Origin: Rhodospirillaceae bacterium
GTDB taxonomy: Bacteria; Pseudomonadota; Alphaproteobacteria; UBA6615
Length of the DNA: 64,000 nucleotides
Reading direction: 5' to 3'
Assembly: GCA_002713365.1 (NCBI GenBank)
Contig: PASR01000011.1
Span: 69,527 to 133,526, forward strand
Positions 14,286 to 21,309 of the stretch are shown one piece after another. The notes under the pieces were generated by a model. The model made no database searches. It had not been told where the DNA came from and saw only the letters and a program-made list of their open reading frames with translations. Numbering within the stretch: position 1 is the first letter of the stretch; each line of letters begins with the position of its first letter. A program made the position numbers and the translations under genes.

Positions 14286-14347
14286 TCACCTATCATATCT
14301 CTTGGATATTACACCCATTAAAACCCTCTGTTTTACCCAATACGTTT

Positions 14348-16348
14348 TTACACATAAATATGATCTGGATCTAATCCATGTTGGTGTCTGTCATATATAG
14401 TCAAATAAGCAGACTCGAGATGTCGTGTAAACAATGGGGTGTCATATAGTGGCGCTGTGGGTAAATTATTGATCAACTTGTCTTTGATGATTTTTAACTT
14501 TTCTGGGTGTAATGCTAGTTGGATAGCAAGTGACTCGTATTGCTCTTGGGTCGTGGTAATCAATTCCGGTAAATTAACGGCATTTAGAAGACTTGCGCCA
14601 ACTCTGCTGGCAAAAGAGTTTCCAATACAACTTAATACCGGCAACCCCATTCTAAGTGCATCGCTAGCAGTAGTGCCCGCATTGTAAGGAAGTGTATCTA
14701 AAAAAAGATCTGTAATCCTATATCTTGCCAAATATTCAGTCATAGGCAAACGTTTTCCGAAAATAAGTCTATTTGGGTGAATACCCTTACGGACACTTTC
14801 TCTAGTTAAATTTATTTTTGCAGTTTTATTATCTTCCAAAAGTAGTAACACACTGCCTTCAACCTGTTTGAGTATCCTCGCCCATCCATCAAAAGTAGTT
14901 GGTGTTATTTTATAGGTGTTATTGAAACAGCAAAAAACGAACCCTTCCTCAGGAAGTCCAATATCTTCTCGGGTAAATATAGCATCTGGGATACATTTTT
15001 TTGAATCATTTACTTGATAACTTGGTAAATAAACAATCTTTTCTGAATAGTATTCTTTATTATTTTCAGGAATTATTGTTTGATCTGCTAATAAATAGTC
15101 ATAATAGCTAGCGCCCATTGTTCCAAGATAACCAATATAACTTAATTGGATAGGTGCTGCTGACATTGCAAATATCCCGGTTCTGGAATCTCGGGTAAAT
15201 CCTCCCAGATCTATCGCAATATCTATTTCAACCGACCTGGCAAGTATGGCTGCATCTTTATCAGACATCTCTCGGATATCATGAAAATGATCAACTCCTG
15301 TTTGAATTCTCAAATGCATTTCATCTTTGGCATCAGGACCATATGAAAAAGCATAAACTTCAAATTTATTTCTATCATGAATTTCGTAAAGTTCTGCAGT
15401 TAAATATGATACGGGATGATTTCTAAAGTCTCCAGAAAAATACCCAATTCGAATTCTTTCGTGCCTATTATTTCGGTTTATTTTGGTTTTTATATTTCTC
15501 TTTGGGTACTTCTCCTTAACATATATTTCTGAAGTTCTTCTATGAATAAGAGAATCGTCAACCAGAGACAGCATCTGAAGAGGATGAGAAACTATGTTTC
15601 CATTATTAATCTTATTTATTAATTCATTAAGATGTTTCTGATGGTTATTCCATATAAAAAGAGATCTTTTGGTATACGACAATTCGCCTAAGACAAAGTC
15701 CATATCTGGGTTTAGAGAGTTGGCACGTTCAAAACTCACCAATGCTTCGTCTAGTCGCTTGAGAAATTTTAGAGTAACACCACGATTAGCGTGCGCGTTG
15801 GCATTATTAGGATTTAAAGTAATAGCGCGATCAAGACTTATTAATGCTTCATCCAGTCGTTTGAGCTCATTTAAGATAAAACCTCGATTCGAATATGGAT
15901 CAGCAAAATTCGGTTTTAAAGCAATAGCACGGTCATAACTTATTAGTGCTTCATCTAGACGTTTGTGGTCTAGCAGGGTATTGCCACGGTTAGAATGTGC
16001 CTCAGCAAAATCCGGTTTTAGAGCTATAGCATGATCAAAACTTTCTAGTGCTTCATCCAGTCGTTTGAGGTCTCGTAAGGCATTGCCACGATTATTAAGA
16101 GCATTAGTTTGGTTCGGATCTATTTGTAGAGATTCACCTATAATTTTTACTGCATCTTCTAATCTTCCTTTTTGGAGTGCAAGAGTTCCAAACATAGTTA
16201 ATAGTGATACATTCGTAGGTAGATAGATGAGTAGTTTTTTATACTGAATTTCTGCTAGATCCAACTGACCCGAGTGATGTAATGCAAATGCCTCTTCGAT
16301 CATCTCGTTTTGTTTTGGTGTAGGTTCTATAGGTTTTTTATGTTGCAT
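14348..16348 (-). CDS. TPR-repeat / O-linked N-acetylglucosaminyltransferase-like (GT41) protein
   Basis: A 666-residue protein. The N-terminal half (about 12-235) is a run of tetratricopeptide repeats with phrases such as NRGNALRDLKRLDEALESF that recur nearly unchanged every 34 residues. The C-terminal part (about 285-650) matches the SPINDLY/OGT catalytic domain: GYFSGDFRNHPVSYLTAELY, IDLGGFTRDSRTG, PIQLSYIGYLGTMG and the nucleotide-binding LDTLPYNAGTTASDAL. Bacterial relatives transfer GlcNAc or other sugars to protein serine/threonine, or are linked to glycan export. No signal peptide is seen, so it is probably cytoplasmic. It is monocistronic, divergent from the repeat-protein array that begins 133 bp away. 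The near-identical 102-bp DNA repeats could change in number by slippage. Confidence 0.88.
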   Translation of the reverse strand: MQHKKPIEPTPKQNEMIEEAFALHHSGQLDLAEIQYKKLLIYLPTNVSLLTMFGTLALQKGRLEDAVKIIGESLQIDPNQTNALNNRGNALRDLKRLDEALESFDHAIALKPDFAEAHSNRGNTLLDHKRLDEALISYDRAIALKPNFADPYSNRGFILNELKRLDEALISLDRAITLNPNNANAHANRGVTLKFLKRLDEALVSFERANSLNPDMDFVLGELSYTKRSLFIWNNHQKHLNELINKINNGNIVSHPLQMLSLVDDSLIHRRTSEIYVKEKYPKRNIKTKINRNNRHERIRIGYFSGDFRNHPVSYLTAELYEIHDRNKFEVYAFSYGPDAKDEMHLRIQTGVDHFHDIREMSDKDAAILARSVEIDIAIDLGGFTRDSRTGIFAMSAAPIQLSYIGYLGTMGASYYDYLLADQTIIPENNKEYYSEKIVYLPSYQVNDSKKCIPDAIFTREDIGLPEEGFVFCCFNNTYKITPTTFDGWARILKQVEGSVLLLLEDNKTAKINLTRESVRKGIHPNRLIFGKRLPMTEYLARYRITDLFLDTLPYNAGTTASDALRMGLPVLSCIGNSFASRVGASLLNAVNLPELITTTQEQYESLAIQLALHPEKLKIIKDKLINNLPTAPLYDTPLFTRHLESAYLTIYDRHQHGLDPDHIYV

Positions 16349-16480
16349 GATTATGACGTATTTGATTGACTGTAAAATAATGAAATTATTATTATAATAA
16401 CTACTAACATAGGTTTAAGTCTATTTACCCAATTTGCTGAGTATAGGTTTATTGTATGCATATGTAGAATTAAAAGTTTA

Positions 16481-16521
16481 TTAGACTCCTCAACAACACC
16501 AAAATATGCTAGAGTTTCTGT
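16481..16521 (+). repeat. 41-bp array leader element, copy A
   Basis: This element ends at the base before the ATG of the 16522 gene. It matches copy B at 34 of 41 positions without gaps. Read on the minus strand it encodes T-L-A-Y-F-G-V-V-E-E-S, the same recombinase segment as in copy B. Confidence 0.85.
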
Positions 16522-17040
16522 ATGAGAAATCTCACCATCACATTTCTGACTATTGTGTTCTGTCTCACATCCTCAATTGCGTTCAGTGAAACAGTTAAAC
16601 CAGAGTTTTTGAAGGAACGTAATGGAATTATCTACAAGAAGAAGGTCTCTAACAAACCTTACTCTGGTTACGTGGAGGGTAAAAAAGAGAATGGATTCTT
16701 AGTGAGAGGAACTTACCAGAATGGTAAGAAAGAAGGTGTTTGGAAAACGTATGACTGGGATGTTCAGTTATGGACAAAAAGAACCTTCAAGGACGGTAAG
16801 TTAGATGGTATTTCGGAAACTTATTACGACAATGGTCGGTTAGAAAACAAAATAAATTATAAGAACGGTAAGATGAATGGTCTTTCCGAATTTTATGACG
16901 ACAAAGGTCAGTTAAGGTTTCTAGAAACATGGAAGAACGGTAAGAAAGAAGGTGTTTGGGAATTGTATCATCAGAATGGTCAGTTATGGAAAAAAGAAAC
17001 TTACAAGGACGATAAGTTAATCAAGACAGAGAAGTTTTAA
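16522..17040 (+). CDS. Secreted YwqK-type repeat protein (array gene A)
   Basis: A 172-residue protein with a signal peptide (first 22 residues, ending SSIAFS) followed by about six repeats of the YwqK/MORN-like pattern 'G-t-Y-k-n-G-k-k-e-G-v-W-e-Y-y-d-n-G-q-l'. Pfam calls this MORN_2; annotation pipelines often name it 'toxin-antitoxin YwqK family antitoxin', but nothing here shows a toxin partner. The repeats form beta-hairpins; in relatives the role is scaffold or binding, mostly unproven. Export to the periplasm or surface is likely. The stop codon lies inside the shared 38-bp 3' element. It is the first gene of the five-gene array. Confidence 0.8.
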   Translation: MRNLTITFLTIVFCLTSSIAFSETVKPEFLKERNGIIYKKKVSNKPYSGYVEGKKENGFLVRGTYQNGKKEGVWKTYDWDVQLWTKRTFKDGKLDGISETYYDNGRLENKINYKNGKMNGLSEFYDDKGQLRFLETWKNGKKEGVWELYHQNGQLWKKETYKDDKLIKTEKF

Positions 17041-17072
17041 GACTTACTAGTCCAACGCACGATAAACTGATG
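17035..17072. repeat. 38-bp array 3' element, copy 1
   Basis: It begins at the TTTTAA that includes the stop of gene A and matches the element at 17608-17645 at 34 of 38 positions. In antisense it encodes the end of a recombinase (T-S-V-Y-R-A-L-D, then stop). Confidence 0.85.
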
Positions 17073-17166
17073 TACGACCTATTCCTAATTCCTTTGAAAT
17101 CGCAGATGCACCTAAACCACTAAAGTTAGACTCCTCAACTTTATCAAAATATGCCAGAGTTTTGGT
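17047..17166 (-). pseudogene. C-terminal remnant of a serine recombinase (resolvase/invertase) with HTH
   Basis: The minus strand between genes A and B reads without interruption for 39 codons to a TAG stop at 17047. The product contains S-G-L-G-A-S-A-I-S-K-E-L-G-I-G-R-T-S-V-Y-R-A-L, the classic C-terminal helix-turn-helix of Hin/Tn3-resolvase-type serine recombinases, preceded by T-L-A-Y-F-D-K-V-E-E-S. The catalytic domain is missing: where it should continue, gene B starts on the opposite strand. It is therefore a fragment and not a working enzyme. Parts of the same tail recur beside the other array genes. Confidence 0.8.
17126..17166 (+). repeat. 41-bp array leader element, copy B
   Basis: This copy ends directly before the ATG of the 17167 gene. 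I used it as the reference copy, as it is still continuous with an intact recombinase-tail reading frame on the minus strand. Ungapped identity by hand: A 34/41, C 31/41, D 26/41, E 24/41. Confidence 0.85.
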
Positions 17167-17607
17167 ATGAATAAAGAAACCCCCAAAGTATCTCCTGACG
17201 ATTTAGTTGTTCGTTATGGAATTACCTACAAGAAGTTCACTAACATTCCATTCACTGGTTATGTGGAGGGGGTACCAAAAGGGACTTATAAGAACGGTAA
17301 GAGAGATGGTGTTTGGGAAATGTATCACTTGAATGGCCGGTTATGGATGGAAGGAGCTTACAAGGACGGTAAGAAAGAAGGTGTTTGGGAAGAGTATGAA
17401 GACGATGGTCGGTTATATAGAAAGGGAAGTTACACGGACGGTAAGGAAGAAGGTGTTTGGGAATTCTATTACCAGAATGGTCAGTTATATCAAAAAGGAA
17501 CCTACAAGAACGATAAGAGAGATGGTGTTTGGGAATTTCATAATGAGAATGGTTCGTTATCATCCAAAACAACTTACAAAGACGGTGAGATAATTAACAT
17601 AGAATAA
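17167..17607 (+). CDS. YwqK-type repeat protein without signal peptide (array gene B)
   Basis: A 146-residue protein of about five YwqK/MORN_2-like repeats (units such as GTYKNGKRDGVWEMYHLNGRL). Unlike gene A there is no hydrophobic N-terminus; it begins MNKETPKVSPDDLVVRYGIT, so it is probably cytoplasmic. The opening 'RYGITYKKFTNIPFTGYVEG' is closely like the region after the signal peptide in gene A, and like gene D, so A, B and D are paralogues. The DNA repeats inside the gene are near-identical (phrases coding DGVWE or EGVWE recur about every 69 bp), giving room for unequal recombination. The same 38-bp element as behind gene A starts at the base after its stop. Confidence 0.78.
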   Translation: MNKETPKVSPDDLVVRYGITYKKFTNIPFTGYVEGVPKGTYKNGKRDGVWEMYHLNGRLWMEGAYKDGKKEGVWEEYEDDGRLYRKGSYTDGKEEGVWEFYYQNGQLYQKGTYKNDKRDGVWEFHNENGSLSSKTTYKDGEIINIE

Positions 17608-17645
17608 TTTTAAGACTTACTGTTCTAATGCACGATAAACTGATG
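17608..17645. repeat. 38-bp array 3' element, copy 2
   Basis: It follows the stop codon of gene B directly. The minus strand again ends in S-V-Y-R-A-L-E-Q and a TAA stop, but the recombinase frame is lost within a few codons upstream, so this copy is more decayed than the one at 17035. Confidence 0.82.
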
Positions 17646-17718: not shown

Positions 17719-17761
17719 TAGGGGGGTAAGTTTACACTTGATTCCCTATTGAACTAAACTA

Positions 17762-17914
17762 TTACTCATCTTTCTCTAGATTACCCATTTCTATAATTTC
17801 GTCTATATGTCTATTGCAACCTATACAAATATTCTCCTCATTAAGAGTACATGTCCCGATACAGGGACTATCTCTCCGTATATCCTCTTTAGTTCTTTTC
17901 ATTTGGCGTAACAA
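17762..17914 (-). CDS. DUF1289-family small cysteine protein
   Basis: A short gene of 50 codons that is easy to miss. The protein carries the DUF1289 signature S-P-C-I-G-T-C-T-L at about residues 16-24 and C-I-G-C-N-R-H-I-D-E-I at about 30-40, that is two CxxxC/CxxC pairs that probably bind a metal such as zinc or an iron-sulfur cluster. The family is common in proteobacteria and uncharacterised. The TTG at 17914 is preferred because GGAG lies 8 bases upstream; the ATG at 17902 (46 residues) lacks a ribosome-binding site. A 22-codon open frame just upstream (start about 17966) overlaps it by ATGA and might be a leader. It is the only minus-strand gene inside the repeat-protein block. Confidence 0.75.
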   Translation of the reverse strand: MLRQMKRTKEDIRRDSPCIGTCTLNEENICIGCNRHIDEIIEMGNLEKDE

Positions 17915-18161
17915 GATATCTCTCCACAACCATTTATATCTACCTGATTTGTTTCAAACTTACCCATTAAACTTAACTACGTATCATCTGAAACCTTCCA
18001 AATGAGTTTTTGGATATAAGAAGTATTATGATTTATAAGTGATATATACAATGCTCTTCCTCATTTTAGTTCAATTACTATACTTTTGGATAACTTCATT
18101 AGTAGAGTTAAATTCTAGTTCAAAAACAACTCTATTATATTTTAATAATTAGGGGGAAATT

Positions 18162-18489: not shown

Positions 18490-18600
18490 GTGGTAAGTCA
18501 TCCACAGAGTCCAACACAGAGGTTAACCCAATTGATTATTGATTTATATAAGTCTGTGATAGGAAAAGGTGATATTATTCGTTACTGCACTCCTCTAAAG

Positions 18601-18641
18601 TCAGACTCCCCAACTTCACTAAAATATGCGAGAGTTATACA
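18601..18641 (+). repeat. 41-bp array leader element, copy C
   Basis: This copy ends directly before the ATG at 18642 and has 31 of 41 matches to copy B. In antisense it still reads T-L-A-Y-F-S-E-V-G-E-S-D-F, then a stop a few codons later. Confidence 0.82.
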
Positions 18642-19799
18642 ATGAGAAAACTCAACATCATCATCTGTCTATCATTTGCTTTCATTCTTGGAAGTGCAGG
18701 AAGTAGTGCTGCTTTGCCTCAGTGTTCAGCAGAGTCAGATTACTGGAATAACTGTTTTGGAACTAGAACGTATGATAATGAATATAAATACGTTGGTGAA
18801 TTCAAGGATAACAAGAAACACGGACAAGGCACTTATACTTGGGCGACTGGAAACAAATATGTTGGTGAATTCAAGGATAATAAAATTCATGGAAAAGGAA
18901 CTTTTACCTCTGCCGATGGTGAAAAATACGTTGGTGAATTCAAGAACAATCAAATTCACGGACATGGCACTCGTACCTATTCTGATGGAAGGATAGATGA
19001 GGGTGTATGGGAAAATAATAAATTCAAATATACGCAGTCTGTGGCTGAATACCGTAAAATAAAACTTGCTGAAAAAAAAGCACTTGAAAAAAAACAACTT
19101 GCCGAAATAAGAAAGCGTGAAAAACAAGAACGTGATAAAAAACTTGCGGAACAGAAAAAACAAAGAAAATTAGTAGCCCAGGCAAAACAAGGAAACGCCG
19201 ATGCTCAATTTACTCTGGCTGTTATGTATGAGAACGGGGATGGTGTCCCACGAGATGAAAAGACTGCTATGAAGTGGTACCGACTTGCAGCAGAACAGGG
19301 GCACGATGATGCCAGTGAAAGGTATAGCACATTTATTTTAGAGGATATTATTTATAAAAGTGATGTTCGGGCATTAGTAAATCTTGGTGACTCTTTGGAA
19401 ACAGAATGTAAAAAAGATATAAAATGTGCCTTTATAAAAATATGGACATATATTGATATTACTAAAGATGATCATCTATCAGCGGCTGAAATTGCTCGGT
19501 TCCAAAGAAATATTGTAAAGTTTGCTGCAGCAGATGAGGGTGAAAATGTATTGGAGACTGAAGACTTCGCGGCAATCCAGTTAGCATCAATAATATTTTT
19601 GCCAATTACTGCATCATCAGTTTTGAATAGTTTTGATTACGATAATGATGGGTTGCTCTCAAAAAATGAAGTTTTTGGGGATACAGAGTTTTCTAAATTA
19701 GTAGGAATTAATATAGATATATTTTCAAATGGCTTTGAATTTAAATCTCTGGGAAAAAAATTGCAGGACGCTATGGAAGTAATTCCATTGCTTAAATAA
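18642..19799 (+). CDS. Secreted MORN - coiled-coil - Sel1 - EF-hand protein (array gene C)
   Basis: A 385-residue protein with a four-part build. A signal peptide covers about 1-24 (LGSAGSSAALP). Three to four MORN repeats follow (about 45-125; units such as KYVGEFKDNKKHGQGTYTW). Then comes a highly charged lysine/glutamate helix (about 130-182). A Sel1 repeat lies at about 183-222 (AQFTLAVMYENGDGVPRDEKTAMKWYRLAA). The C-terminal part holds two EF-hand-like loops, DITKDDHLSAAEI (about 271-283) and DYDNDGLLSKNEV (about 330-342). Calcium binding in the periplasm or at the surface is plausible for the second loop, which has acidic or asparagine ligands at 1, 3, 5 and 12. The combination is unusual. 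The first loop has a lysine at position 4 and may be degenerate. Confidence 0.82.
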   Translation: MRKLNIIICLSFAFILGSAGSSAALPQCSAESDYWNNCFGTRTYDNEYKYVGEFKDNKKHGQGTYTWATGNKYVGEFKDNKIHGKGTFTSADGEKYVGEFKNNQIHGHGTRTYSDGRIDEGVWENNKFKYTQSVAEYRKIKLAEKKALEKKQLAEIRKREKQERDKKLAEQKKQRKLVAQAKQGNADAQFTLAVMYENGDGVPRDEKTAMKWYRLAAEQGHDDASERYSTFILEDIIYKSDVRALVNLGDSLETECKKDIKCAFIKIWTYIDITKDDHLSAAEIARFQRNIVKFAAADEGENVLETEDFAAIQLASIIFLPITASSVLNSFDYDNDGLLSKNEVFGDTEFSKLVGINIDIFSNGFEFKSLGKKLQDAMEVIPLLK

Positions 19800-19818: not shown

Positions 19819-19859
19819 TTATTTACCCCAATTTTTTTATAGTCTGCCAGGGTTTTAAA
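19819..19859 (+). repeat. 41-bp array leader element, copy D
   Basis: A diverged copy (26 of 41 matches to copy B) ending directly before the ATG at 19860. The best preserved part is the 3' half around TGCCAG-GGTTTT. Confidence 0.65.
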
Positions 19860-20300
19860 ATGAATAAAAACACTTCGACAATTACTCTATCTGATTTGGT
19901 AGAACGTGACGGAATTACCTACTTTAAGTTAAATAATTTTCCTTTTAGTGGCTCTGTAAAGGGCAACCAGGTAGGAACTTACAATAGAGGTTTAAAAGAA
20001 GGTCTTTGGGCATACTATTATAAGATGATGGGGCAGATAGAAAGAAAGGGAACCTATAGTAAAGGTTTTAGGCAGGGTATTTGGAAAACGTATTTCAAAA
20101 ATGGTCAGTTATACAGCAAAGGAACTTACAGTGACGGCAAAAAACAAGGCCTTTGGGAATATTTTCATAAGAATGGTAAGAGATGCCGTAAAGCAACTTA
20201 CATTGATAACGCAGAAGAAGGTATTTGTGAATATTTTGATAAGAATGGTAGGCTAGAATACAAAGAAATGTACAAAGACGGTATGAAGATACCAGACTAA
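19860..20300 (+). CDS. YwqK-type repeat protein without signal peptide (array gene D)
   Basis: A 146-residue protein, the same length as gene B and built the same way: a short polar N-terminus (MNKNTSTITLSDLVERDGIT), then about five YwqK/MORN_2 repeats such as GTYSDGKKQGLWEYFHKNGK. There is no signal peptide. It is clearly a paralogue of gene B but its repeats have drifted more at the DNA level. The minus strand over its stop reads I-V-Y-R-D-S-stop, possibly a last trace of the recombinase tail found behind genes A and B. Function unknown; a binding or scaffold role is the usual guess for such repeats. Confidence 0.78.
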   Translation: MNKNTSTITLSDLVERDGITYFKLNNFPFSGSVKGNQVGTYNRGLKEGLWAYYYKMMGQIERKGTYSKGFRQGIWKTYFKNGQLYSKGTYSDGKKQGLWEYFHKNGKRCRKATYIDNAEEGICEYFDKNGRLEYKEMYKDGMKIPD

Positions 20301-20425
20301 CTATCCCTATAAACGATAGAGTGAGTATAATCTGAATACCTGCGCTCCTTGTTATCCTAACATTTACCAATAGTGATAAAGTAGGGAAAACTATTTAGTA
20401 TAATCACCTTACCTATCCATTAAAA

Positions 20426-20466
20426 CTAGAGCCCCTATTTAAATCAAAGTCAGCTAGTATTTTCGA
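20426..20466 (+). repeat. 41-bp array leader element, copy E
   Basis: The most diverged copy (24 of 41 ungapped matches to copy B), ending directly before the ATG at 20467. It is supported mainly by position and by the runs TAGA, ATCAAA and TTTT in register. Confidence 0.5.
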
Positions 20467-21309
20467 ATGAATAAATTTACTATCATAGTTCTTGCTATTG
20501 TATTCTGTTTAACTACCTCGATTGCTTGGAGTAAAACTGATGAAGTTTTGGTTCCAAAAACTTTAATTTTAGAAGCTAGGAAGTCTGAAGAAACCTATCG
20601 CTTGATAAACTCTCTATTTACTCAAGGTGGTAATGCAATTGAGGTTTCAGATTGCAGTCATCCACAGTTTGGACCACATATAACTCAGAATTTTGATAAA
20701 AACCTTAAAAAATATGTATTCCGTTTTCATATTCATCGGGACCATGATTCTGATAGATGTAAGTTATTTGGACGCCAAAGAACTGAAATCAAAGTATACG
20801 ATAAATCCCCCGACTGGTTAAAAGCCAGGAAACAAAGTAAATTTATTTATAAATGGAAGTTTAAATTAGATGAAAAATTTCAGTCTTCTCGATATTTTAC
20901 ACATTTGTTTCAGGTGAAGGCTGTGGGCGGTTTATATTTTAAACACCCAGTGATTACATTTACCACTCGTAAAGGGCTTGCAGGTCAAGAAGATAAATTT
21001 GAACTTCGTTATGGAACTAAACATAAAAGTGAAAATATTCTTGTTGCACAATTATCGCCTTTTTTAGGCAAGTGGTTACAAGTAGTTTTTGAGGCAACAT
21101 TTGCAGAAAAAGGTAGACTTTTTGTAAAAATAACTTCTCTCGAAAACGGTACTGAATTACTTAGCTATAAAAATACATCCATTAAAATATGGAAAGATGA
21201 ATCCAAATATTTGAGACCGAAGTGGGGGGTTTATAGGAGTTTAAAAGATAAGAGTATGCTAAGAGATGAAATTATAGATTTTGCTGATATTGAAATTCAG
21301 GCTAATTAG
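20467..21309 (+). CDS. Secreted jelly-roll protein, possible polysaccharide lyase (heparin-lyase-like) (array gene E)
   Basis: A 280-residue protein with a signal peptide (about 1-22) that is strikingly like that of gene A (both contain IVFCLT.SIA.S). The mature part is rich in beta strands and contains FGRQRTEIKVYDKSP (about 98-112) followed by YKWKFKLDEKFQSSRYFTHLFQVK (quoted in two pieces: YKWKFKLDEKF and SSRYFTHLFQVK). Such an R-x-E-I/L strand next to a W-x-F-x-L strand is typical of concanavalin-like folds of the heparin-lyase-I / PL20 group. It would cleave or bind an acidic polysaccharide outside the cytoplasm. Catalytic residues cannot be assigned by eye, so a non-enzymatic carbohydrate-binding role remains possible. 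Confidence 0.6.
   Translation: MNKFTIIVLAIVFCLTTSIAWSKTDEVLVPKTLILEARKSEETYRLINSLFTQGGNAIEVSDCSHPQFGPHITQNFDKNLKKYVFRFHIHRDHDSDRCKLFGRQRTEIKVYDKSPDWLKARKQSKFIYKWKFKLDEKFQSSRYFTHLFQVKAVGGLYFKHPVITFTTRKGLAGQEDKFELRYGTKHKSENILVAQLSPFLGKWLQVVFEATFAEKGRLFVKITSLENGTELLSYKNTSIKIWKDESKYLRPKWGVYRSLKDKSMLRDEIIDFADIEIQAN

Follow-up and report, generated by a model that had tools for sequence, protein, structure and literature searches.

What is a piece of a recombinase gene doing between two repeat-protein genes? In the window, a stretch of 64,000 nucleotides (G000:C9:69527-133526) from a 2.52-Mb genome in 19 contigs, glmU-glmS is followed by a minus-strand TPR/GT41 gene. Plus-strand genes come next: two encode MORN_2 proteins (A and B), one a MORN/Sel1 protein, one a further MORN_2 protein and the last a lyase-like protein. 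The spacer between A and B (17041-17166) is 126 bp long, and its minus strand translates as ...TKTLAYFDKVEESNFSGLGASAISKELGIGRTSVYRALD, followed by two stops. Translation bears out this minus-strand reading, which the initial annotation had taken for an intact serine-recombinase tail. A 41-bp leader and a 38-bp 3' element repeat the two ends of the segment, as it had also stated. We compared the locus with the two other genomes of the genus (G001 and G002; n = 3 with the window genome G000) and with a family set of 24 genomes that includes those three.

We built a profile from 71 distinct C-termini of related recombinases and found that minus-strand positions 17053-17118 score 41.1 bits (E = 1.7e-11), the best of 2366 window frames in six-frame translation. 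The best scores in 20 simulated windows range from 4.9 to 10.4 bits. Pfam HTH_7 matches residues 17-38 of the tail with 17.8 bits, below its cut-off of 23.8. This part of the spacer is thus a real serine-recombinase C-terminus. Eight leader-bearing genes carry such helix-turn-helix (HTH) tails at their 3' side. Three are in G000 (A, B with 38 bp of tail remaining, and the L010 gene) and five in G002 (A, B, the L028 gene, a Sel1 gene, and a MORN_2 gene whose tail is reduced to 31 bp). The L010 copy runs on into true recombinase sequence (KKAKELRDKGLG...) and has a stop inside the HTH. Over its last ~22 residues, the relic matches the C-terminal HTH of serine recombinases with Resolvase and HTH_7 domains (e.g. 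at L032 and L080), but the genus retains no catalytic domain, PF00239 being found in none of its three genomes. Differences in the reading frame of the tails, inspected for selection on that frame, are few and mixed. The G002 tail behind the Sel1 gene differs at 7 of 57 positions from the recombinase of genome G018 and at 16 of 57 from the window tail (rows for G015 and L009 had been cut in another register and are excluded from this comparison), and tails of two origins therefore share one seam. Recombination via the shared GCAGATGCAC stretch would produce such a common seam, as might other routes. In G001, a 96-aa fragment with a Recombinase domain (PF07508, 1.4e-7; L196:1573-1863) lies directly next to glmS, with a GT41-like gene beyond it; it is another recombinase remnant at the glmS hotspot.

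The leader is a bipartite block of ~45 bp. A sequence-only model of it (R1, built from 13 copies) yields 56 matches across the three genus genomes at E <= 1, and we based our counts on the 29 strong copies with E <= 0.0013. An ATG opening an open reading frame follows at a constant distance in 22 of these, including the copy at window position 19860, for which the distance was read by eye. The remaining seven are decayed or located farther upstream of a gene; one lies 134 nt ahead of a gene for a TRAP-type binding protein. Conservation is concentrated in two boxes, AGACTCC and AAAATNTGCCAGAGTTT, separated by a variable spacer of much lower conservation. Strong copies occur at four places in G000 (C5 7.7-21.1 kb, the window, C9:211.7 kb and C10:11.8 kb) and point in one direction within a cluster (5/5 in the window, 7/7 at L009). 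The genes behind them are unrelated and represent at least eight Pfam families; they comprise MORN_2, MORN/Sel1, Sel1, Adhesin_E, 6-phosphogluconate-dehydrogenase-like, histidine phosphatase, TPR-methyltransferase, TauD and trypsin/MORN genes. At E <= 0.01 the leader is absent from the 21 other family genomes, and the scanned loci outside the genus contain one chance-level match (L082, 11.8 bits). Its layout and conservation suggest a putative promoter of a nearly leaderless message. A scan for the sigma-70 consensus revealed no promoter excess, and at the A-B seam neither a terminator nor a sigma-70 consensus rose above shuffled sequences. We further noted that the window MORN/Sel1 gene and a histidine-phosphatase gene of G001 are 80.9% identical over 162 bp (window 18534-18695, L029:6798-6959), which covers the leader, ~60 bp upstream and the signal-peptide codons, while the proteins differ. 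From this alignment it seems that just the 5' end became fused to gene bodies of different kinds.

Unit parts in the window, with positions counted from its first nucleotide.
Feature	Position	Strand	Evidence
Leader (promoter-like block) of gene A	16480..16521	+	R1 match, E 7.6e-11; ATG at fixed distance
Gene A, MORN_2 repeat protein, N-terminal signal-like stretch	16522..17040	+	Pfam MORN_2, 2.6e-14
Serine-recombinase C-terminal relic (HTH and stop), 3' end of A unit	17047..17118	-	Profile, 41.1 bits; HTH_7
Leader of gene B (antisense TLAYFDKVEES)	17112..17166	+	R1 match, E 7.6e-14; seam position
Gene B, MORN_2 repeat protein	17167..17607	+	Pfam MORN_2, 1.1e-17
Truncated recombinase tail (38 bp), 3' end of B unit	17608..17645	-	Matches 95-126 of the 126-bp segment, E 1.4e-4
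Leader and MORN/Sel1 gene	18597..19799	+	R1 match, E 7.1e-10; Pfam MORN and Sel1
Degenerate leader and MORN_2 gene	19826..20300	+	R1 match, E 0.0012; Pfam MORN_2
Leader and polysaccharide-lyase-like gene	20422..21309	+	R1 match, E 2.3e-6; Polysacc_lyase 26.6 bits, below cut-off 29.9

Comparison with G002 supports the notion, raised in the initial annotation, that the tail has spread together with repeat-protein genes: gene-plus-tail units are found repeatedly, at several loci, in one species as well as across species. At the DNA level, gene A shares 98.1% and gene B 93.0% identity with its G002 counterpart, versus 64.9-79.5% for seven other genes (from eight other rows, of which one paralogue at 66.1% is left out) and 80% protein identity for GlmS. 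For whole units, identity is 95.8% for A (691 bp) and 92.7% for B (524 bp), the G002 copy of B being located at another locus. The block of similarity around A starts at the leader, and high identity stops near 17106, inside the tail; past this point a lower, paralogue-like identity extends through the next leader up to the ATG. A's tail and the leader behind it are followed by B in the window and by the Sel1 gene in G002. A leader lies no more than 10 nt away from 6 of 34 alignment-block ends, compared with 0.72 expected from circular shifts, in a test biased somewhat toward leaders since these align everywhere. The units adjoin glmS in the window and in G002 (L026), guaA at L029 (and L010, assigned to guaA by similarity) and tRNA-Glu/typA at L009 and L031, anchors of a kind typical for variable regions. 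Other parts of the G002 glmS region match the window as closely as A and B do and are changed in order: the 3' piece of a GT41 gene, at 95.5%, and a stretch of 185 bp, at 93.5%. The corresponding window segments 14334-14755 and 17748-17932 lie 3 kb apart and abut in G002 (L026:10144-10756), which is a local rearrangement around the units. A comparison of L009:16263-17078 with L078:3173-4267 shows that G002 lacks a leader-bearing gene of 264 aa, of which the leader and ~7 codons remain as an apparent deletion scar.

We propose, with a probability of roughly 65%, that the locus is composed of units of leader, gene and recombinase tail, which have spread through duplication and horizontal transfer as well as through homologous recombination at the ends that they have in common. 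The 126-bp segment would then be the seam of two such units. Its leader would belong to the right-hand gene, placed for transcripts starting just before the ATG, and its HTH relic to the left-hand unit. Gene B would start at the end of the segment because its own leader lies there. The relic may derive from a resolvase/invertase-type recombinase gene once convergent to a repeat-protein gene; the enzyme itself has been lost from the genus, its last codons persisting as a common 3' end. Shared ends would allow homologous recombination, probably of the RecA type, between leaders or between tails, either by duplication or with DNA from relatives. Because many units share both ends, single genes could be added, removed, swapped or moved at a few variable loci, each putative promoter staying with its gene.

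Several other explanations have to be weighed. The initial annotation had considered that cassettes insert into an existing recombinase gene, and had noted that B begins where the catalytic part should be. We reject such insertion, as the same junction precedes the Sel1 gene instead of B in G002, L010 keeps recombinase sequence there with no gene inserted, and a catalytic part is lacking from all three genus genomes. Around the segment, where the annotation had suggested a check for crossover-type inverted sites, no strong ones were found, and the leaders of the cluster share one direction. Examined as an invertible, phase-variable locus, 12 kb contain only weak inverted repeats (25-30 nt at 70-80%) and no recombinase. 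Another reading, that leader and HTH form one contiguous recombinase tail and that the leader arose from recombinase antisense and became a promoter, accords with the frame that continues through both in several copies and with the identical seam position in six copies, one of them with a tail of a different recombinase lineage. Scored in fixed register, the leader part reaches 0.4, close to the 99th percentile for random 9-mers, one in a hundred of which scores 0.5; two real recombinases score 15.5 and 21.6. The percentile is a weak hint favouring a recombinase-derived leader. Yet the first ~15 residues of the tail, including TLAYFDKVEES, score -1.9 bits against the recombinase profile, as unrelated sequence does, and the HTH is found upstream of 4 of the 29 strong leaders and is absent from the other 25. 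L010, G015 and G018 carry other sequence at the leader position, and the corresponding G002 unit L028, 79.8% identical to L010, has the leader where L010 keeps recombinase. We consider a contiguous origin unlikely: TLAYFDKVEES is the antisense of the promoter-like leader of B and contains no recognizable recombinase residues. Of the tail described as intact, the HTH half stands. The supposed antisense recombinase fragments are real for this half and also for the 38-bp 3' element; to call the 41-bp leader recombinase is wrong or at best unproven.

It is also conceivable that the variable glmS region was passed on as one island and later rearranged, leaders and tails being passive repeats that guide no exchange. 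Several pieces of the G002 region are indeed 93-96% identical to the window in a different order, a similarity on a par with that of A and B, so that a single larger transfer, rearranged afterwards, could account for part of the picture. As the whole explanation it is improbable, B being at a different locus in G002 and the similarity of A and B starting and ending at a leader or tail. That the segment is an attC-like site of integron-type cassettes is suggested by its length of ~126 bp and by GTCCAAC and GTTAGAC near its two ends, which we take to fit the attC core-site consensus. We reject this reading and regard it as hardly credible: the integron integrase model TIGR02249 exceeds its cut-off in none of the three genus genomes, with weaker matches also present in 14 of 14 controls, the single strand of the segment folds no better than shuffled sequences (z = -0.97), and the leader is conserved well beyond the would-be crossover point. 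The units resemble integron cassettes in being single-gene units with common ends, one direction and different genes in corresponding places, but they come without an integrase or an attC-like fold, and each has its own promoter-like block. The set thus works like a cassette array, is no integron, and has no working recombinase of the resolvase type. A variant of our proposal, in which leader and tail are maintained as the working ends of a genus-wide, integron-like set of integrase-free cassettes, host recombination swaps genes singly among the glmS, guaA and tRNA-Glu/typA loci, and the last codons of a dead recombinase have been put to new use as the cassette 3' end, is a tentative possibility that we rate as rather doubtful.

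The ancestral pair in our proposal of exchangeable units was considered in view of relatives that retain the recombinase. In the family member G015 (Rhodospirillaceae bacterium SI074_bin10; L079, 100%), the last 12 codons of a Sel1-type gene are present at a contig end, 7 nt away from where an intact 3' part of a recombinase terminates. In G018, a frameshifted recombinase is convergent to a small gene that comes after Sel1-repeat open reading frames. From this 12-codon Sel1-like end and the frameshifted case we infer that a convergent ancestor may have existed. As a general arrangement, convergence of recombinase and repeat-protein gene was rejected: a convergent open reading frame of any kind, >= 80 aa long and within 40 nt, is present in only 9 of 80 named relatives, and none of these frames was recognized by eye as a repeat protein. 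A regular-expression scan found Sel1- or MORN-type motifs in 4 of 80 named loci (L080, L082, L083 and L152) in varied orientation, and the association of recombinase and repeat genes outside the family is therefore occasional. One of these loci, from the SAR116 single cell AG-343-K16 (L080; 503-2341 and 4851-5402), combines an intact resolvase-type recombinase with MORN_2 and Adhesin-E-like genes, kinds that are also present in G000.

The nearest known kind of element is the putative mobile promoter, reportedly a homologous promoter-like sequence ahead of non-homologous genes. Our units share with it one promoter-like sequence that precedes unrelated coding sequences within and between genomes, and 22 of the 29 strong leaders, ahead of at least eight Pfam families, conform to this description. 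They differ in their common 3' end, the recombinase relic and the same-direction clusters. Putative mobile promoters (Matus-Garcia et al. 2012; van Passel et al. 2014) are cited in PMC8049555. In the titles and opening lines of abstracts on MORN/Sel1/YwqK islands, recombinase cassettes, mobile promoters and SAR116/glmS, the arrangement found here is not described. Genes with a common promoter-like 5' end and a dead-recombinase 3' end, in varied combinations at a few loci, are modestly new. They caution that what reads in antisense as an 'intact recombinase tail' may combine a relic with a promoter. They also provide a readable case in which repeat-protein genes may be exchanged singly in an alphaproteobacterium without an active integrase, with unit boundaries legible almost at base resolution because the units appear to carry their own promoter and a recycled recombinase fragment.
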